Shown: in pieces, positions 12,259 through 61,049 of the stretch
Numbering within the stretch: position 1 is the first letter of the stretch
Layout: the number at the start of each line of letters is the position of its first letter
Assembly (NCBI GenBank): GCA_016124855.1
Contig: WGMX01000027.1
Location: 62,001 to 126,000 of the forward strand
Length of the DNA stretch: 64,000 nucleotides
Direction: 5' to 3'
From: Anaerolineaceae bacterium
GTDB taxonomy: Bacteria > Chloroflexota > Anaerolineae > Aggregatilineales > Phototrophicaceae
Position numbers and translations under genes: made by a program
The notes under the pieces: model-generated
Databases searched by the model: none
What the model was told of the DNA's origin: nothing
What the model saw: only the letters and a program-made list of their open reading frames with translations

Positions 12259-15200
12259 TTACAGTGGCAGCATCACACTCAGTTGAGTTCCATCCCCCGG
12301 TGCGCTCTTAATGCTGATCTCTCCGCCCATTTGTATCACACGCTCCCGCATCGAATGTAGCCCCAGATGTCCCGGAAAATCCTTTGATGTTTCGAAGCCA
12401 ATGCCGTTGTCAATCACATCTAACCGCAGCGTTCTGTTATCAGACTGCATCCGCAGCATAATGCGCGTGGCGTTAGCATGTTTGACCACATTATGCAGCG
12501 CTTCCCGCGCGACCAGGTACAAACTTTCTTTGGTAGCCAGTACCATTTGTGGCTCGTCACCCAGCTCAATTTGCACTTCGATAGCATGACGCGCTTGGAT
12601 GGATGCGGCTTGTTTCGCCAGTGCGACCGCCAGCCCTTCAGTCTCCAACGACTCCGGTCGTAATTCGAAGATCAACGCCCGCATTTCAGCCAGACCGGCT
12701 TCCGCCAGCGTCAGCACATATTCAACCGACTCGCGCACAATCGTCGGGTTTTTATCCAGCGAACGGTAAGCAGTCTGTGCGCCGAGGCCGATGCCATACA
12801 GCGCCTGTGAAACCGAGTCGTGAAGTTCGCGCGCAAGCCGCGTCCGTTCTTCCAGTGCAGCCAGATCATGCGCCCGTTGACGCGCACGCTCCGTCTCATC
12901 ACGCAGCCGGAAGCGTTCCAGCGCCGCGCCCGTAAGTTCAGTCACGCCCGACATCAAGCGTATCTCGCGGTCTGTAAAATTGCGCTGTGTTTTGCAACCC
13001 ACAGCGAATACACCGACCACACGCTGGTTTTCAACAAGGCTGGTAAAGGCCACCGACATAATGCCGAAACGCCGCGCCGAAGCCGCCGCCGCGTCATCCG
13101 CCCATTCCGGCGCGTTCACATCATGGATAATTTGGACTTTACCCGATACTGTGCTAGACAGATCAAACACGTCACGCGGCAAACGGGTTCCGGCAGGCAA
13201 ACCGGGATCGGTCGAAATCACCGTTTCGGTATAAGTCGCCTTATTCCGGTCGTAGTTTTCCCACATGAAAATCGCTACATATAGCGGATCAGGGAAGGAG
13301 CGGTTAACGGCTTCCATCACCTCGTGGTTGGTCTTGGAGCGGTTGATTTCTTTGCCGACCGTATATAGCAGTTCATTTTCGGCACGTGCCTCTTGCTCTG
13401 CGATATAAACACGGCGTGTCGCGATAACCGCCGGTAGGGTTTGCAGCAGGCGTTCGAGGATAAAACGCTCGTCATCGCTGAACGTGTGCGGCTCTTTCCA
13501 ATTAATGCTAATCAATCCTTGGAACTCACCGGCGTGCATGAAGGGCAGGATGACTGCCGCCCCCATCGTCAAATGGGTTTTCATCCACGCGCGCCGTTCT
13601 GGATCCAAACGGGAATCATTACCGATGTCCGGGCTGTACATGACTTGATCGGGATGAGGCAAAAACAGCGGCCCAAGCAGATAATCTTTGCGGGAAACAT
13701 GGCGTATCTGATGACCGGGCTGCCGGTAATCGGTATATTCGCCGTCCATCCACAAGGCAATGAGGTAGGACGCGAACGGATCAGCCTGTATATAGTCGGC
13801 GTAAGCCATTTCAACCCGGTACGCGCCAATCGACGCAGCAAAGGGCACGAACGCACGCAGCAAATCCAACTCATTGACCGCGCGAGAAAACGACGCATTC
13901 AGGTTTGCCAGCGTTTCAGCGTGTTGTCGGGCGGTAATTGTTTCCTGCTGGAGATAAATACGCTCGACCGCAGCTTTCGCCAGATCACCGATACCTAAAA
14001 TCAAGCGAAGATCACGTTCAGGGAAGTGATATGGCTGGGACTTGTTGAAGAACAACCAACCAAATAAACGCCCTTCGCGATGAAATGTCACGATCACGAC
14101 CGCGCGTGTTCCTGTGACCTTCCAATTCGCCCGTGAAACCTCATCCGCCCGTAAATCGGTATCTGTATCTTCGATCACCAATAACCGTTGATCCCGAAGC
14201 TGTTCTGCCATCGGGAACCGGTCTTTAGGAACTCGCATTCCAACAATATACTGAAGTTCTTCAGGGATATTCGCCGCAACCGGAATTTCAAAATAGTTGG
14301 CGCGGTCAATATCAAAATTCTCGTACAGATTAAGGTAAACACCTTCACAGTCCGGCAGCAGCCGCACCACCGCGTCCAGTATCGCTTGGTAAGAGGTCGC
14401 GGCGTTAATCTGCTCCGCCAGTTGATACAGAAAATGCGACTCTTCCTTAGCGGCAATCGTCTCCTGCTGCAAATGAATCCGCTCGATAGCCGCCTTTGCC
14501 AGATCACCGATACCCATCGCGAGGCGGCGATCATGCTCCACAAACACATGCGGTTCCGACCGCACGAACAACAGCCACCCGAACAGCCGCTCTTCGCGGT
14601 GGAATAAAACGGCCATAAAGGCGCCCGTGCCGATAACTTTCCAGCTTTCGCGTGACACGTCATCAATGCGTGGATCGGTCTGGATATTATCGACCACCAC
14701 CAACCGTTGGTCACGGACATCATTTGCGAAAGGGAAGCTCGCCTTCGGAATACGTGTTCCGATCATCCACTGGTAGCGCTTCGGAACATTTGCACCCACC
14801 GGAACTTCAAAATAACTCGCGTTATCGAAGTCAAAGTTTTCGCATAGATTCAGAAACACACCTTCCGAATCCGGCATCAACCGCACCACCGCGTCCAATA
14901 TCGCTTGGTAACTGGTCGCGGCGTTAATCTGTTCCGCCAGTTGATATAGGAAATCGGCTTCTTCTTTAGCCACTACCGTTTCGCGCTGTAACCGAATCCG
15001 TTCGACCGCCGCGCCCACCAGATCACCAATACCGGTCGCGATCCGCCGTTCCTGCTCGCCGAACACATGCGGTTGTGGATAGTAGAACGTCAGCATTCCC
15101 CAGATGCGTTCGCCTGCACGCAAAGGAATGACGATGCCAGCCCGCACCGGCAAATCACGATAATAATCACGTCCGGCGTCATCAAAACGGGGATCTGCGA

Positions 15201-17799
15201 AGAAATCTTCCGAAACCCAGATGCGGTCATTCTGCAAGTTGTTAAATGTGCCTTTGATGACCGGCGTTTCGGGTTTGATATGCTGCTTTAACTGATCTGA
15301 AACCGCGCTGAAAGCAATCGTTTCGGAGTAACTGGCGAGGTTCATATCCAGATGTTCAAAGAAACTCATGAAGATGCCGCTAGACTCCGCCTGCAAACGC
15401 GCCACAGCATCGACAATCTCTTGATAGGTCAAGGCCGCGTTGATCTCACCCGCGAGTTGGTACAGGAAAGCCGATTCAGCGTGGGCAGCAGCCGTTTCTT
15501 GCTGCGCCTGAATGCGGATAATCGCGCTGGCGACTAGGTCGCTAATCGCCAGTGTCAAACGGCGGTCACGCTCTGAATATTGGCGCGGTGTCGAACTTTC
15601 AAAGCTCAACGTGCCGTACCAGCGTTGATTTTGTACCAGCGCCACCAGCAGCAGCGCCCGTGCGTTGGCCGCCTCCCAACTATCCCGTGTCAATGGATCA
15701 ACTAACGGGTGATTATGAATATCTTCAATCGCGACTTGACGCGCCTTTACAACATGCTGGGCAATCGGGAACTGATCCTCTGTGAAGCGTGTTCCGATGA
15801 CGACCGGCATCTCGCCTTCTTGGTTAATGCCCGCCACCAGATCGAAATGATTGGCCTTGCGGTAATCCAGATGTTGCCACAAAAACAGGTAAACCCGCTC
15901 GATGCCGCGTGCTAACGGCGCAATCGCTTTAATCACCTCGGCAAATGTCGCTGCTGTATTGATCGCTTCTGCTGCCTGATACAGCAAACTCATTTCTTCG
16001 CGGGCGCTTTGCTCGTCCACATAAGCCTGAGCCTGCGCTTCGACCGCCGCTTGCATACTCTGCGCCAGCCGGATACGTTCGACCGCCGCCGTCACCAGAT
16101 CACCAATCGCTAAGGCCAGACGGCGTTTGCGTTCGCTGAATGCACGTGGCTCGGCACTGTGAAAAGCCACGCTGCCGATGCGTTTTTCACCATATACCAG
16201 CCGTACCATCAAGATGGCGCGCGAGTTCATAGCGTCCCAGCTTGCGCGGCTGATGGGATCAACTTCGGGGTCAGAATGTGTGTCCTCGATGAACCAGTAT
16301 CGTTCCGGGAATTTTTTACCGGAGAAGGGGAAATCACGCTTGAGTAAACGGTGTCCCGGTTTAAGCGGACTTTTCCCCTGCATATCATAGATGGCGGTGA
16401 CTTCATAATCCGTAGCGCTCACGAAATCGTAGTTTTCCCACAGGTATAGATAAAGTGTATCCGCCTGTGGTTCGAGAACTGCCACCGCCCGCAGCAGTTC
16501 ATCATAAGTCTTAGCCGAGTTGACCGCTTCCGAGACTTTGTAAAGCGTCGTCGCTTCTTCGCGCGCGCTTTGCTCGTCCACATAAGCCTGAGCCTGTGCT
16601 TCGACCGCCGCTTGCATATTCTGCGCCAGCCGGATACGCTCAACTGCTGCCGTCACCAGATCACCAATCGCTAAGGCCAGACGGCGTTTGCGTTCGCTGA
16701 ATGCGCGTGGCTCTGAACTGTGAAAAGCCACGCTGCCGATGCGCGTCTCGCCATAAATCAAACGCATCATCAGAACCGCACGGGTATTTAAGGCATCCCA
16801 ACTGGCGCGGCTAATCGGGTCGATGGTCGGGTCGGCATGAATATCTTCAACGAACCAGAAGCGGCCTGAGAATGACCGCGTTGAGTAGGGGAATTGGCTC
16901 TTTTGCAGGTGCGTTCCCGGCTTAATTGGACTCTCGCTCTGCATATTGTGGATGGCAGCCACTTCCATATAGGTCGCATTGTTAAAATCGAAATTTTCCC
17001 ATATAAACAAATAGATGTTGTCCGCCTGAGGCTCAAGAACCGCCACCGCCCGCAGCAGTTCATCATATGTCTTGGCCGAGTTGACTGCCTCCGAGACTTT
17101 GTAGAGCGTCGTCGCTTCTTCGCGCGCCTCTTGTTCAGCCAGATAAGCACGGCGAGTGGCTACTACCGCCGATAAATTTTGGACGATTTGTTCATAAACG
17201 TAGCGTTCTTCATCACTGAACACATGCGGTTGGTGCCACATGATAATCAGGCTGCCTTGCCAGCGTCCGCCGCTGTACAAACCCAGCATCGCCTCCGCCC
17301 GCATCGGATACTGCGGCAGGAAATCCGCCCGGCTTTCAGCTTTTATCCGTTCATCCGTCTCGACATTTTCCACATAGAAAATACTGCCCGGCTCTTGTAA
17401 CGCCAGATCACGAATTTCGATGATGACGTCATGAAATTTTTCGCTGCCTTCGTCAATCACACGGTAAGGAAACGGATGTTTAAAAATCCAACGTGCCACC
17501 GGCGTAAAATCAGCACTGCTGATATTCTCGCCCGGAGTAGCATAATTCAGCAGTACGCCCGCCGCACCTTGCGCATCAGCATATTCCGCGACTGCCGCCA
17601 AAATTGAGGCTTCATCCGTCGCCTGTACAAGGGCAGCATTAATCGCCGCCATCGTCTCCGCCCGCTGCTGGGCGCTGCTGATCTGCGGGGTATGAATCAG
17701 TGTTGATTGGGATGGATCAGTCGCTGCGGTTGGCTGGTGTGGCTGTGACGAAGGGTTCGCTTTTGGTTTCGCCTTACGCTTTGTGCCAGATATGTTCAT
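12259..17799 (-). CDS. Nine-GAF soluble histidine kinase (HisKA_3/NarX type)
   Basis: This 1846-residue kinase has no membrane segment. Nine consecutive GAF-like modules of about 175-190 residues start near residues 48, 225, 413, 600, 773, 945, 1118, 1291 and 1471. Most open with an LYQLAEQIN- or LYKVSEAVN-like helix and contain YLFxWENxD-like and xxERIRLxQ linker motifs. The kinase core starts near 1645, with HisKA_3 motif ERTRLARELHDSVSQALYGI (H1660), then the ATPase motifs REALHNVVKHA, DNGIGFE and GHLGLHSMRERV. Modules 2/3 and 6/7 are nearly identical, and DNA at 16001-16160 repeats at 16561-16720 (560-base offset), a sign of recent internal duplication. The ligands are unknown. The likely partner is the NarL-type regulator encoded at 10828-11466. 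Confidence 0.9.
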   Translation of the reverse strand: MNISGTKRKAKPKANPSSQPHQPTAATDPSQSTLIHTPQISSAQQRAETMAAINAALVQATDEASILAAVAEYADAQGAAGVLLNYATPGENISSADFTPVARWIFKHPFPYRVIDEGSEKFHDVIIEIRDLALQEPGSIFYVENVETDERIKAESRADFLPQYPMRAEAMLGLYSGGRWQGSLIIMWHQPHVFSDEERYVYEQIVQNLSAVVATRRAYLAEQEAREEATTLYKVSEAVNSAKTYDELLRAVAVLEPQADNIYLFIWENFDFNNATYMEVAAIHNMQSESPIKPGTHLQKSQFPYSTRSFSGRFWFVEDIHADPTIDPISRASWDALNTRAVLMMRLIYGETRIGSVAFHSSEPRAFSERKRRLALAIGDLVTAAVERIRLAQNMQAAVEAQAQAYVDEQSAREEATTLYKVSEAVNSAKTYDELLRAVAVLEPQADTLYLYLWENYDFVSATDYEVTAIYDMQGKSPLKPGHRLLKRDFPFSGKKFPERYWFIEDTHSDPEVDPISRASWDAMNSRAILMVRLVYGEKRIGSVAFHSAEPRAFSERKRRLALAIGDLVTAAVERIRLAQSMQAAVEAQAQAYVDEQSAREEMSLLYQAAEAINTAATFAEVIKAIAPLARGIERVYLFLWQHLDYRKANHFDLVAGINQEGEMPVVIGTRFTEDQFPIAQHVVKARQVAIEDIHNHPLVDPLTRDSWEAANARALLLVALVQNQRWYGTLSFESSTPRQYSERDRRLTLAISDLVASAIIRIQAQQETAAAHAESAFLYQLAGEINAALTYQEIVDAVARLQAESSGIFMSFFEHLDMNLASYSETIAFSAVSDQLKQHIKPETPVIKGTFNNLQNDRIWVSEDFFADPRFDDAGRDYYRDLPVRAGIVIPLRAGERIWGMLTFYYPQPHVFGEQERRIATGIGDLVGAAVERIRLQRETVVAKEEADFLYQLAEQINAATSYQAILDAVVRLMPDSEGVFLNLCENFDFDNASYFEVPVGANVPKRYQWMIGTRIPKASFPFANDVRDQRLVVVDNIQTDPRIDDVSRESWKVIGTGAFMAVLFHREERLFGWLLFVRSEPHVFVEHDRRLAMGIGDLAKAAIERIHLQQETIAAKEESHFLYQLAEQINAATSYQAILDAVVRLLPDCEGVYLNLYENFDIDRANYFEIPVAANIPEELQYIVGMRVPKDRFPMAEQLRDQRLLVIEDTDTDLRADEVSRANWKVTGTRAVVIVTFHREGRLFGWLFFNKSQPYHFPERDLRLILGIGDLAKAAVERIYLQQETITARQHAETLANLNASFSRAVNELDLLRAFVPFAASIGAYRVEMAYADYIQADPFASYLIALWMDGEYTDYRQPGHQIRHVSRKDYLLGPLFLPHPDQVMYSPDIGNDSRLDPERRAWMKTHLTMGAAVILPFMHAGEFQGLISINWKEPHTFSDDERFILERLLQTLPAVIATRRVYIAEQEARAENELLYTVGKEINRSKTNHEVMEAVNRSFPDPLYVAIFMWENYDRNKATYTETVISTDPGLPAGTRLPRDVFDLSSTVSGKVQIIHDVNAPEWADDAAAASARRFGIMSVAFTSLVENQRVVGVFAVGCKTQRNFTDREIRLMSGVTELTGAALERFRLRDETERARQRAHDLAALEERTRLARELHDSVSQALYGIGLGAQTAYRSLDKNPTIVRESVEYVLTLAEAGLAEMRALIFELRPESLETEGLAVALAKQAASIQARHAIEVQIELGDEPQMVLATKESLYLVAREALHNVVKHANATRIMLRMQSDNRTLRLDVIDNGIGFETSKDFPGHLGLHSMRERVIQMGGEISIKSAPGDGTQLSVMLPL
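16001..16720 (-). repeat. Internal tandem duplication inside the GAF kinase gene
   Basis: The stretch near 16001-16160 is almost identical to 16561-16720, with an offset of 560 bases. It covers the linker between GAF modules and marks duplication of a whole module. Confidence 0.8.
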
Positions 17800-19030: not shown

Positions 19031-20776
19031 ATGCCTGAACCCTCTGCTTTACCAGATTTACCCTTAGATGACATCCAACGCTTGCGTTCAATGGTTGGGG
19101 ATGTCAAAACCGCGCTCAAAAATCAAGGCGAACTGCTTCAAATGCGTGGTATGTCGCTGCCTCCCGGCGCGCTGAACAATCTGGATGTCATGGATAACGA
19201 TCTGGGCGGTCTGCAAAAAAATCTCGGCGGCGAGACGACCGAACTGCTGCAACTGCGGACGCTGGCAGCAACCTCGGCGCTCATCAATTCCTCTCGTGAT
19301 TTAGACACCGTGTTTGCCCGCGCCATTGAGGAAGTTATCCGTCTGACCGGTGCGGAGCGTGGCTATATCGTTTTGATTGACCCGCACACGGGTGAACAAA
19401 ATCTGCGGATTGCCCGCGACTTAGACAGCGGAGTCAACGCGACCTTTCAGGGTAGTAAGACCATTCTGAATGAAGTTCTCTCAACCGGCGAACCACTGTT
19501 GGCTGATAACGCTTATAAAGACCCGCGCTTTGCCGACCGTGGGACGGTCGCCCAAATTGCGCTGCGTTCGGTGCTGTGTGTGCCGCTCAAAAACAAAGAC
19601 AAACACGTCGTCGGCGCGGTCTATGTCGATAACCGTCTGCTAGCCGGTGTCTTTGACCAGCGTGTACTCTCGATTCTGGTGGGGTTTGCCAACCAGATGG
19701 CGGTTGCCGTCGAGAATGCGCAGTTGTTCATGCAGGGACAAGAGAACCTTAACAATATCACCGAGCTAAACGAAGTCCGCGAAAATGTGTTTGGCTCTAT
19801 CGAAAGTGGTGTCATCACCACCGACTCAGTCAACGCTATCCGTACCATCAACAGTGCTGCCGCCGCTATTCTTGGCCGGCAGCGTGATGAAGCGCTGGGG
19901 CGTTCTTTGACCGACATGCTGCCGCTGGTCACCAGCAACCACTTGAGCCATGTCTATGAACAGGATGATCGCCAATCGTTCGAAGCGACAATGGAAACGC
20001 CGAATGGGTCTAAAATCGTTACCCTAAAACTCAGCCCGCTTAAGGATGTTGATGGGCAAACTCAAGGTGTTGCCGTTGTTCTGGATGACGTTACCCAACA
20101 GCGCGAACGCGAGACCCAGTTGAGCATTATCCGTCGTTATCTGCCGCCGGCGATGGTCGATAACATTGAGATGCTTTCGGGATTGGCGCTGGGTGGCGAA
20201 CGGCGCGAAATGACCTGTATGTATGTTGAAGTCCGTCCACTGGCAACCTTCCCGCCGGATTTACGCCCGCGTGAAGTCATGGCGCTCTTAAATGAGTATC
20301 ATGATGTGGCTACGGCTTGCATCCACAACAGCAACGGCGTTATTGATAAGTACATGGGCACCGAAATCATGGCGCTCTATAACACGCAGTTTAACCCGAT
20401 GGAAGACCATGCGAATCAGGCCTTAGAAGCGGCCTTGCTGATGCGCGAGGCGTTCATCAGCCTGTACGAGTGGCAGGGGATTAACCCTAATCCGCATTAT
20501 TACCGCATCGGCATTCACAGCGGCGTGGCGACAACCGGTAACGTAGGCAGCGTCAGCCGTCGTGACTTTACCGCGCTCGGTGATACGATCAATCTTGCCC
20601 ATCGCTTGCTCGAAAATGCTAAACCGGGGCAAATTTTGGTGAGCGAAGCCAGCTGCGAATATATCCAACGTGCATTGGGGCAGTTCCCCGATCATGTAGT
20701 CTTTGGCCCACAAGAGCCGATTAAGGCGAAGGGTCGCCAGCAGTTTACGACTGTTTACGAGGTGCTTTCGAAATGA
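19031..20776 (+). CDS. Class III nucleotide cyclase homologue, GAF-PAS-CHD, C2-like subunit
   Basis: This 581-residue cytosolic protein has an N-terminal helical region, a GAF domain (about 70-235), a PAS domain (about 245-355) and a cyclase homology domain (about 375-581). In the cyclase domain the two metal-binding Asp positions are replaced, by E400 in MYVEVRPL and by T444 in DKYMGTEIM. The substrate-binding K440, the adenine-region T514 (FTALGD), the transition-state N521 and R525 (DTINLAHRL) are kept. Alone it should be inactive as a homodimer, but it has exactly the C2-type half-site. Its stop overlaps the start of the next gene by four bases (ATGA, 20773-20776), a sign of coupled translation with the complementary partner. 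Confidence 0.9.
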   Translation: MPEPSALPDLPLDDIQRLRSMVGDVKTALKNQGELLQMRGMSLPPGALNNLDVMDNDLGGLQKNLGGETTELLQLRTLAATSALINSSRDLDTVFARAIEEVIRLTGAERGYIVLIDPHTGEQNLRIARDLDSGVNATFQGSKTILNEVLSTGEPLLADNAYKDPRFADRGTVAQIALRSVLCVPLKNKDKHVVGAVYVDNRLLAGVFDQRVLSILVGFANQMAVAVENAQLFMQGQENLNNITELNEVRENVFGSIESGVITTDSVNAIRTINSAAAAILGRQRDEALGRSLTDMLPLVTSNHLSHVYEQDDRQSFEATMETPNGSKIVTLKLSPLKDVDGQTQGVAVVLDDVTQQRERETQLSIIRRYLPPAMVDNIEMLSGLALGGERREMTCMYVEVRPLATFPPDLRPREVMALLNEYHDVATACIHNSNGVIDKYMGTEIMALYNTQFNPMEDHANQALEAALLMREAFISLYEWQGINPNPHYYRIGIHSGVATTGNVGSVSRRDFTALGDTINLAHRLLENAKPGQILVSEASCEYIQRALGQFPDHVVFGPQEPIKAKGRQQFTTVYEVLSK

Positions 20777-22587
20777 GCCAGTTCCAGACGGAAGAAACCG
20801 CCCGCTTTCAAACCAATCGTAATGCGACGCAAGAGCAAATTCGTAATCTTGCCAAACAGGTCAACGAGACGCTGGAAATGCTGCGGAACCAGCGCGACAT
20901 TCTGCGCCAGCGCGGTATGAGCCTGCCTGCTAACTCGATGGACACGCTCAAGCAGCTTAAAACGGGCGTGGACAAGCTCAACATGAATATCACCAACGTG
21001 CTGACGGAACTCAAACAACTGCGCGAATTGGTGACCACTGCCTCGATTGTCAATTCGTCACTCGATACAGGCGAAGTTCTGAACGAAGTGATGGACACTG
21101 TGGTTCGCATCACCGGTGCGGAACGGGGTTATATCGCGCTCATCAACAATCAGTCGGGAGCGATGGAATATCCGGTGCGGCGCGGTATTGACCGTGAACA
21201 GTTGGAACAGGGCGATCTGGTTGTTAGCAGTTCGATTATCAACGAAGTGCTGGTCACGGGCGAGGGGGTTATCACCGAGAACGCCAGCAAAGATAACCGT
21301 TTTCAAGGGAATCAGAGCGTCATCGGTTTTCAACTCCGCAGTATTCTGGCAGTTCCGTTGAAAGTACAGGATACCGTGATTGGCGTGGTTTACTGCGACA
21401 ACCGCATTGTTGATGGTCTGTTTAAAGCCAGCGACCTCAACTTGATTAAAGCCTTTGCCAGCCAAGCCGCCGTCGCTATTGAAAATGCGCGTTTGTATGA
21501 AGAACTGCAAGCGCAAGTCGCCGAGATGACCGAATCACGCGATTTGTTGACGAGTATCTTTTCCTCCATCGTCAGTGGTGTGATTACGATTAACCGTGAA
21601 GATTTCGTTACCGATTGTAATCCGGCTGCCGAATCGGTCATCGGGCGCACGCGCGATTTCCTGATTGGCTACCATATTGCGGATAACATGCTGGGCGTGG
21701 GGGACGATTTCTATGATGGGTTGGTACGGGTACGTGAACAGGGTACGCCTGAACAAATGGTGGTCGAACCGGTTTTAGACGGCAGCAAGCGTTATTGGAA
21801 TATCACCATGAGTCCGCTGCGAGACAGCGCCGGCGTGAGTCAAGGTGTCGCCATCGTGCTGGATGACCTGACCGAAACCCGCCGCCGTCAGGAGCAGTTG
21901 GGTATCGTCAGCAATTATATGAAGCTCAAACTGGAAAATATTCAGGACGCGGCCAACCTTGATGTGGGCGGGCAAGAGCGCGAAATCAGTATGCTGCACT
22001 CGGATGTGCGCGGCTTTACCACCTTTAGCGAACAGCTTGAACCGGAACGCTTGATGGAAATCATCAATGCGTATATCAGCCTCGCCAGTGATGCCATTAA
22101 CCTCTACGAAGGGGTTGTTGATAAGTACATGGGTGATGCGGTGACCGGTTTGTTCAACACCCCGTTTAATCCGCAAGAAGATCATGCCCTACGCGCCGTT
22201 CGTGCCGCTATGAGCATGAAATATGATCTGCTGGCACTGCATGAAATTCTGCCTGAAGAACAGCGGTTGTTTTATGGCATCGGTGTTCATACTGGTATGG
22301 CGGTTTTGGGCAATATTGGCGGCGCGGAACGTAAAGAGTACGGCGCGTTGGGTGATGCCCCTGATCTTGCCAAGCTGCTGCAAGAAAATGCTGAACGTGG
22401 CGAAGTGCTAATTAGCCAAGCCACTTATGATATTGTCAAAGATAACTACGAGTGCGAACCGCTTGAGCCGCGCAAAACCAAAGGCCACACCGATTTCACG
22501 GTGATGTACCGCGTCCTCAAGCATAAGCGCCGTACGGGTGCCACAGGCATGCTCAGTCAAATTAACCTCGATGAGTTTGGGGTGTAG
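20773..22587 (+). CDS. Class III nucleotide cyclase homologue, GAF-PAS-CHD, C1-like subunit
   Basis: This 604-residue paralogue of the upstream protein has the same order: a helical N terminus sharing RGMSLP with its neighbour, GAF (about 80-245), PAS (about 255-370) and a cyclase domain (about 385-580). Here both metal ligands are present, D411 in HSDVRGFT and D455 in DKYMGDAV, and K451 is kept. The transition-state residues are lost: Asn is replaced by D531, Arg by L535 and the Thr/Asp position by G524 (YGALGDAPDLAKLL). It therefore offers the C1-type half-site only. The ATGA overlap with the upstream gene suggests 1:1 synthesis and a heterodimer with one working catalytic site. The GAF/PAS input ligand is unknown; ATP rather than GTP as substrate is likely but not proven. 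Confidence 0.9.
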   Translation: MSQFQTEETARFQTNRNATQEQIRNLAKQVNETLEMLRNQRDILRQRGMSLPANSMDTLKQLKTGVDKLNMNITNVLTELKQLRELVTTASIVNSSLDTGEVLNEVMDTVVRITGAERGYIALINNQSGAMEYPVRRGIDREQLEQGDLVVSSSIINEVLVTGEGVITENASKDNRFQGNQSVIGFQLRSILAVPLKVQDTVIGVVYCDNRIVDGLFKASDLNLIKAFASQAAVAIENARLYEELQAQVAEMTESRDLLTSIFSSIVSGVITINREDFVTDCNPAAESVIGRTRDFLIGYHIADNMLGVGDDFYDGLVRVREQGTPEQMVVEPVLDGSKRYWNITMSPLRDSAGVSQGVAIVLDDLTETRRRQEQLGIVSNYMKLKLENIQDAANLDVGGQEREISMLHSDVRGFTTFSEQLEPERLMEIINAYISLASDAINLYEGVVDKYMGDAVTGLFNTPFNPQEDHALRAVRAAMSMKYDLLALHEILPEEQRLFYGIGVHTGMAVLGNIGGAERKEYGALGDAPDLAKLLQENAERGEVLISQATYDIVKDNYECEPLEPRKTKGHTDFTVMYRVLKHKRRTGATGMLSQINLDEFGV

Positions 22588-60209: not shown

Positions 60210-61049
60210 ATGCCGATTGCGCCCAATAATCTAAAGTCCGTCAAATTATTCGAGCTTATGGATGACAGTGAGCTTGAAGAGCTTGCTGCTCACATTGACG
60301 AAGCCTCGTTTGCCCCCAGTCAAATTCTGTTCAAAGCGGGTGATAAAGGCGATAGTATGCACATCCTGCTGAGTGGCAAAGTTGAAACCTTTGTCTACGA
60401 CGGTGAAGCCAACCGGATTAAACTCAGCGAAGTGGACGAGGGCGGCATCGTCGGTGAGCTTTCTTTATTGGACAATCAACCCCGTTCGGCCACAGCCATC
60501 GCTGTTGAAGAAACACGGACGTTCATCATTGACCGTGATGATCTCAAGCGCTTGTTTCAAAAGAAACCGGAAGCCGCGCTCGATATTTTGGCTGTGCTTG
60601 GGCATCGCATCCGCGAAACCGATACCCTCCTCATCAGCCGCGCCAGTATGAATGCCAACGAAGAGATCGACGAAAGATTGACTTTCGGACAGCGCATCGC
60701 GGATAAAGTAGCATCTTTCGGCGGTTCGTGGAATTTTATTATCTCGTTTGGTGCCATCCTCTTGATCTGGATCGTTCTCAATACCATGATTCTGTCCAGA
60801 CCGTTTGACGGCCCGCCTTTTATTTTGCTCAACCTCATTCTGTCGATGTTAGCCGCGCTTCAGGCTCCGGTCATTATGATGAGCCAGAACCGGCAGGATG
60901 CCAAAGATCGTATTCGCTCCGAACTGGATTACAAAGTGAACCTCAAATCAGAATTGGAAATCAAACAGCTTCACGAAAAGATTGACAGCTTAGAGTTGGA
61001 TATTAAGCAGCGTTTCAGCCAGATCAACAGCACCAAAAGTGGTACATAA
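60210..61049 (+). CDS. Cyclic-nucleotide-binding domain fused to DUF1003 membrane domain
   Basis: This 279-residue protein has a cNMP-binding domain (about 12-130) with a good phosphate-binding cassette, GGIVGELSLLDNQPRSATAI: the Glu and the RSAT Arg are the residues that hold cAMP or cGMP. A DUF1003 domain follows (about 160-279) with two helices (WNFIISFGAILLIWIVLNTM, FILLNLILSMLAALQAPVIM) and a coiled C-terminal tail. It looks like a membrane protein gated or tuned by a cyclic nucleotide. This is notable given the cyclase pair encoded at 19-22.6 kb. It may be co-transcribed with the four genes downstream (gaps of 5-8 bases). Confidence 0.88.
   Translation: MPIAPNNLKSVKLFELMDDSELEELAAHIDEASFAPSQILFKAGDKGDSMHILLSGKVETFVYDGEANRIKLSEVDEGGIVGELSLLDNQPRSATAIAVEETRTFIIDRDDLKRLFQKKPEAALDILAVLGHRIRETDTLLISRASMNANEEIDERLTFGQRIADKVASFGGSWNFIISFGAILLIWIVLNTMILSRPFDGPPFILLNLILSMLAALQAPVIMMSQNRQDAKDRIRSELDYKVNLKSELEIKQLHEKIDSLELDIKQRFSQINSTKSGT

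Follow-up and report, generated by a model that had tools for sequence, protein, structure and literature searches.

The stretch of DNA analysed here (hereafter the window) comprises 64,000 nucleotides of contig WGMX01000027.1 of an Anaerolineaceae bacterium (assembly GCA_016124855.1). At positions 19,031 to 22,587 it carries two overlapping genes, A and B, each predicted to encode a class III nucleotide cyclase that lacks a different part of the expected active site. An earlier note, made from the letters of this DNA, had proposed that A and B are duplicates that divided one active site between them and function as an obligate heterodimer. The genes, their domains and their catalytic positions are as follows.

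19031..20776, plus strand: gene A, 581 amino acids, helical N-terminus followed by GAF, PAS and cyclase domains; C2-like, without the second metal Asp and with Lys, Thr, Asn and Arg
19298..19711, plus strand: GAF domain of A, residues 90-227 (Pfam)
19796..20107, plus strand: PAS domain of A, residues 256-359 (Pfam)
20207..20752, plus strand: class III cyclase domain PF00211 of A, residues 393-574 (Pfam)
20228..20230, plus strand: E400 of A, at the first metal position, where 49 of 95 A homologues have Asp
20348..20362, plus strand: K440 to T444 of A, base-selecting Lys present and Thr in place of the second metal Asp
20570..20605, plus strand: T514, N521 and R525 of A, base, ribose and phosphate residues present
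20773..20776, plus strand: ATGA overlap (aATGAg), the start of B lying within the stop of A
20773..22587, plus strand: gene B, 604 amino acids, helical N-terminus followed by GAF, PAS and cyclase domains; C1-like, both metal Asp present, without Asn and Arg
21067..21480, plus strand: GAF domain of B, residues 99-236 (Pfam)
21559..21885, plus strand: PAS domain of B, residues 263-371 (Pfam)
21979..22494, plus strand: class III cyclase domain PF00211 of B, residues 403-574 (Pfam)
22003..22005, plus strand: D411 of B, first metal Asp present, as in 95 of 95 B homologues
22123..22137, plus strand: K451 to D455 of B, second metal Asp present, as in 95 of 95 B homologues
22342..22377, plus strand: G524, D531 and L535 of B, base, ribose and phosphate residues gone

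Both proteins belong to class III, with PF00211 (Guanylate_cyc) scores of 47.9 bits for A and 62.9 bits for B against a curated cut-off of 21.9, and the GAF and PAS domains also exceeded their Pfam cut-offs in each. The shared GAF-PAS-cyclase layout and the ATGA overlap described in the earlier note were thus both found in the window, and every residue that it cited (E400, K440, T444, T514, N521 and R525 of A; D411, D455, G524, D531 and L535 of B) was exact in the translation and fell in a catalytic column when aligned to the solved cyclases CyaC, Cya2 and CyaB. In the alignment with CyaC (1WC1), E400 and T444 of A face the two metal Asp, and T514, N521 and R525 face the corresponding Thr, Asn and Arg; B aligns with 2W01, 6FHT and 3R5G across the same catalytic motifs. 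The base-selecting Lys is present in both proteins (K440 in A, K451 in B), and Lys together with Thr at the base positions, as in the CyaC alignment, would favour adenosine triphosphate (ATP) as the substrate. Class III cyclases build their active sites at a dimer interface. A homodimeric enzyme carries both metal Asp, Asn and Arg in every chain, as do the single-copy relatives that were read; neither A nor B does so, and the two together present complementary half-sites in two homologous domains, which is the C1/C2-type arrangement.

Other Chloroflexota genomes, to which the earlier note had pointed, hold the same gene pair. B was searched in the window genome and 60 relatives and then in 154 genomes of its order (presumably Aggregatilineales), with E 1e-60 as the threshold for a match; at least two matches were present in 130 of the 154, one in 15 and none in nine. 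The 15 one-match genomes comprise nine of family f2, which are all the f2 genomes, and six with pieces: searching with A brought up a fragment of A in G009 and G058, G285 has an A-type piece with Asn and Arg at the locus end, the B copy starts at a contig end in G033 and G217, and G231 has a single partial match in which no cyclase domain was seen. Residues were read in 46 pair loci and 80 named loci (overlapping sets), which cover part of the 130 multi-match genomes. A lies upstream of B on the same strand in all 46 pair loci and in 78/78 two-domain loci among the 80 named ones, the other two (L140 and L191) showing A alone near the end of the available sequence. The Arg column was read in 76 of these 78 loci, since B of L148 and L189 ends before it.

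Three loci deserve separate mention. In the relative L171, A and B lie in one reading frame, in the order A, stop, B. This frame was aligned with the stop read as Gln, and a tethered A-B fold was discarded because the A rows had seemingly been aligned to the B half, where all listed invariant columns fell. In L045 (3081-6512, minus strand) the B frame stays open for about 1700 bases back through A, giving a frame of 1144 amino acids, perhaps as an effect of composition. The record L181 is titled Pleurocapsa minor, a cyanobacterium, and holds a typical A-B pair of the Chloroflexota order; it is probably mislabelled or misbinned.

The division of catalytic residues recurs across the order. Column counts were made on unique domains with 165 or more aligned residues (95 A, 95 B and 30 single-copy), excluding shorter domains and the five paralogues of the window genome. 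The second metal position of A is Asp in 0/95 (Asn 53, Thr 26, Ser 13, Gly 2, Glu 1), and the first is still Asp in 49, with Glu in 30, other residues in 15 and one gap, so that E400 characterises certain lineages. A is invariant for Lys, Asn and Arg (95/95 each), with Thr in 91 and Ser in four at the base position. B keeps both metal Asp in 95/95 and has Arg in none, the position being occupied by Leu (37), Phe (25), Tyr (15) or others (18); Asn is left in 13 B domains, Thr or Ser stands at the base position in 52, and the base-selecting Lys is kept in 78 and replaced by Gln in 17. All 30 single-copy domains have both Asp, Lys, Asn and Arg, and Thr (26) or Ser (4) at the base position. The signature that is fixed consists of two losses, the second metal Asp from A and Arg from B: the half-site loss read in the earlier note is general over these 95 A and 95 B domains, and its E400, G524 and D531 are not. 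When 183 columns were ranked as conserved in A and variable in B, Asn came first and Arg third, and the metal positions, at ranks 174 and 172, were close to the bottom. The replacement of Lys by Gln was seen in B of L177, L178, L182, L186, L187 and others, which fits the absence of a need for this Lys in B.

The number of independent changes, counted as minimum changes on a separate tree of each group, follows the same division. The metal positions changed 17 and 17 times in A and 0 and 0 times in B; Asn and Arg changed 0 and 0 times in A and 27 and 18 times in B; the base-selecting Lys 0 and 2 times, the base position 4 and 20 times and the phosphate Lys 5 and 22 times in A and B, respectively, the median domain column having 14 changes in A and 11 in B. 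These counts indicate that freed positions drift in one copy and that the matching positions of the partner are frozen. A conserved ligand in the dead site was considered and rejected, since the positions that were lost are variable, with minima of 17-27 changes, and show no conserved pocket chemistry. Over their full length, comparison of the window genes with three relatives gave ratios of nonsynonymous to synonymous divergence (dN/dS) of 0.077-0.128 for A and 0.035-0.103 for B, which are rough because dS is high (1.3-1.9); both genes are under purifying selection.

These figures bear on the possibility that a B-B homodimer is a weak enzyme working without Asn and Arg, and that A is a non-catalytic regulator tuning B. 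B does have both metal Asp, and Lys in most homologues (78/95), and cyclases without the canonical Asn or Arg but with residual activity exist; a pure regulator, however, would not need the Lys, Asn and Arg of A, which show no change on the tree, and the Lys is gone from 17/95 B, so that we regard this explanation as improbable compared with a heterodimer of A and B.

The single-copy relatives speak to the origin of the pair. Family f2, which lacks A, has an intact single copy in 9/9 genomes (five by alignment, four by motif), with no second match at E 1e-60 in any of the nine, and is a natural control: without A, the remaining copy is whole. A search of 150 genomes of the class with an f2 protein gave a match at E 1e-60 in 41, of which 34 lie outside the order; the best match was read in 25 of these 34 and was intact in 25/25, a count of best matches; 8/34 genomes also have weaker second matches on other contigs. 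An unrooted tree was built from 30 rows of A, 30 of B, five of f2 and 25 from outside the order; in it a branch with support 100 separates A plus B from the singles, with support of 99 for A and 88 for B, and constraining f2 to group with B (p 0.0003) or with A (p 0.00005) was rejected. A second tree included the distant paralogues of the window genome, on long branches; these group with the f2 singles, and the grouping of A with B has support 96. Most simply, a single older gene underwent one duplication within the order; the separation of A and B from the intact singles fits the suggestion of the earlier note that duplication was followed by division of the site.

Other cyclases in the same genomes were also surveyed. 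Besides A and B, the window genome encodes five PF00211 domains, in each of which both metal Asp as well as Asn and Arg are present; the Lys column holds Arg in one of them, and in one nothing aligns at the base column. In genus g17, two matches were found in 34/34 genomes, and in 17/17 genomes tested there are exactly two PF00211 domains, side by side, so that A and B of the tested g17 genomes have no other class III partner to borrow, unless one lies in an assembly gap. Of the nine genomes of the order that lack the pair, five were tested, and no PF00211 domain was found in any of these five.

It is very unlikely that A and B are both pseudo-cyclases whose dimer serves as a signalling scaffold or nucleotide sensor without catalysis. 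Each chain is incomplete alone, and the GAF and PAS domains do give sensory potential, but the retained residues sum to a full catalytic set that is frozen in 95/95 A and 95/95 B, and g17 keeps the two matches in all 34 genomes with no other class III domain in the 17 tested. That A and B each partner another cyclase instead of each other is scarcely credible, for although the five further domains of the window genome carry both metal Asp, Asn and Arg, A and B overlap in a fixed gene order and the tested g17 genomes offer no other class III domain.

The A-B heterodimer is favoured over these alternatives because the half-sites are kept across the order, the trees place A and B together apart from intact singles, both genes are under purifying selection and in 17/17 tested g17 genomes A and B are the only class III cyclase domains found; the reading given in the earlier note is supported on the same grounds. 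Therefore, we consider it highly probable, as judged from sequence, that a soluble adenylyl cyclase of class III is built from A and B as its two subunits, and that it derives from a homodimeric GAF-PAS-cyclase gene that was duplicated and had its site divided. We hypothesize that, after the homodimeric gene duplicated, the active site became divided between the copies, and that in an A-B dimer B would give the two metal-binding Asp, the role of C1 in mammalian cyclases and of the alpha subunit in soluble guanylyl cyclase (sGC), and A would give Lys, Thr, Asn and Arg, the role of C2 and of sGC beta; these roles are assigned because the logic is the same as in mammalian C1/C2 and sGC. The result would be one complete site and a dead mirror site combining the missing Asp of A with the missing Arg of B, and A-A and B-B dimers would be without needed residues. 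The GAF and PAS domains of each subunit may then bring two sensory inputs to one catalytic site. Obligate pairing and the use of ATP are likewise predictions made from the sequence.

Several points weigh against this reading. The labels A, B and single were set by the very residues under study, which makes the column figures and the ranking partly circular, and some of the named A rows had been retrieved with a pattern that demands a residue other than Asp at the second metal position. The residue-set A and B labels agree with gene order in every two-domain locus and with the clades of the tree, and among rows not fetched by pattern the 49 A have the second Asp in none and Asn and Arg in all 49, and the 51 B have both Asp in all 51, Arg in none and Asn in six. 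The trees have no root of their own, the rooting paralogues of the second tree being long branches, and on an unrooted tree the duplication could be older, A having been lost from genomes outside the order, though this is a less simple history. R520 of B is fixed in A and B, yet underwent at least four changes in the intact singles; its candidacy as the C1 phosphate Arg was set aside as a doubtful equivalence and is not relied on. Asn and Arg mutants of other cyclases can keep some activity, and B-B might for this reason be weakly active. Homodimers of A or B may form, since cyclase domain interfaces can be promiscuous (excerpt of PMC3591389). Domains binding cyclic nucleoside monophosphates (cNMP) occur in 5/5 tested order genomes without a class III cyclase. 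Finally, the physical A-B dimer, the inactivity of each protein alone, the conversion of ATP to cyclic AMP (cAMP) and the input signals are all things that we infer, and the structure models of A and B are single chains, hence no test of a dimer.

These AlphaFold2 models have a mean predicted local distance difference test (pLDDT) score of 79.4 for A and 74.4 for B, with predicted template-modelling (pTM) scores of 0.44 and 0.37, respectively. In Foldseek, with 50 matches listed for each, both models reached template-modelling (TM) scores by target of 0.73-0.89 to isolated solved cyclase domains, and so show the cyclase fold; among their matches are class III cyclases, chains of sGC and 6FHT, a fusion of a phytochrome with Cya2.

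As to the surroundings, a glyoxalase-type gene lies upstream of A, about 200 bases away, and beside the pair, at 12259-17799 on the minus strand, the window encodes a protein of 1846 amino acids that contains five or more GAF stretches and ends in a HisKA_3/HATPase_c histidine kinase. A scan near A-B gave 3 promoters and 4 terminators, below the shuffle means of 4.7 and 5.4, and no conserved genomic partner was found, the commonest flanking gene family occurring in at most 18/80 loci. Since cNMP-binding domains occur with and without a cyclase, receptors do not track the pair and none is assigned. A protein of 279 amino acids at 60210-61049 (plus strand) of the window has a cNMP-binding domain and could be a cAMP receptor; its letters GELSLLDNQPRSAT resemble an intact nucleotide-binding motif. 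In a g17 genome, L214 (3433-5685, minus strand) encodes a sulfate permease-type transporter with STAS and C-terminal cNMP-binding domains that is possibly cAMP-gated. An N-terminal cNMP-binding domain is found in the proteins of L215 (2754-4601, plus strand), which also has a bacterial PH domain, and L217 (2385-4220, plus strand), and the window genome has a protein whose layout, judged by eye, resembles theirs.

If the heterodimer is real, all class III cAMP synthesis in g17 would depend on it, and the pair would be a separate bacterial case of the C1/C2-type division of labour, in two genes rather than fused. The many divergent A-B pairs, with intact single-copy relatives as controls, would allow a test of what site splitting buys; possible gains are that one site receives two sensory inputs, that neither half is active by itself and that a pseudo-site becomes free. 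No bacterial split-site class III heterodimer was seen among the open-access papers listed in the literature searches, most of them judged from the listing and subscription papers not being covered; the listed papers include a 2004 survey of Actinobacteria (PMC2447327) that uses 'heterodimer' three times. As far as those papers show, A-B is probably the first case to be recognised of an obligate heterodimer among bacterial class III adenylyl cyclases, in which a duplication in one Chloroflexota order divided the site as in animal C1/C2, was fixed across most of the order and became the sole class III cyclase found in one genus.

The known systems, for which the sources are cited from excerpts, place the pair as follows. 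Bacterial class III cyclases are described as homodimerising monomers, fused dimeric species being unknown in bacteria according to the excerpt of PMC9552081. A and B share the PF00211 fold with the homodimeric CyaC, Cya2, CyaB and Rv1625c, their nearest solved structures, but each lacks a needed half, unlike these enzymes, which are taken to homodimerise with two equal sites; mammalian heterodimers and the Rv1625c homodimer are treated in PMC2576301 and PMC9433096. Heterodimeric class III cyclases have been described, chiefly in eukaryotes, and the fungal RGC/NeoR proteins are obligate cyclase heterodimers from separate genes (PMC8815786). In this respect they resemble A-B; in contrast, none of the residues with a known part in cyclisation is missing from RGC1 or RGC2, and a split site does not explain their pairing (PMC8815786). 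In mammalian transmembrane adenylyl cyclase (tmAC), the metal Asp come from C1, the residues for substrate and transition state come from C2, and the mirror site is a pseudo-site (PMC4174876). A-B would share this split over two domains, with one live and one dead site, but A and B are separate proteins with GAF and PAS domains, encoded by neighbouring genes, and on the tree their duplication lies within a Chloroflexota clade. The tmAC-type single chain with two membrane domains is absent, the locus having two genes in which Pfam finds only GAF, PAS and cyclase domains (no membrane-helix predictor was run). In sGC, key residues are spread over two subunits, alpha with the metal Asp and beta with the Arg, such that homodimers cannot form the site; alpha-alpha and beta-beta catalytic dimers are without significant activity, and mixing restores it (PMC3591389). 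A and B are like sGC alpha and beta, two gene products with sensory domains, a coiled coil and a cyclase domain, and their models match sGC chains in Foldseek, at low whole-chain TM. Unlike sGC, they are bacterial and have Lys at the base-selecting position (95/95 A), which would favour ATP over GTP, and Pfam finds no H-NOX domain in A or B, only GAF and PAS preceding the cyclase domain. Taken together, A and B are, as a well supported reading, a bacterial, two-gene, split-site class III cyclase that would parallel mammalian C1/C2 and sGC alpha/beta.

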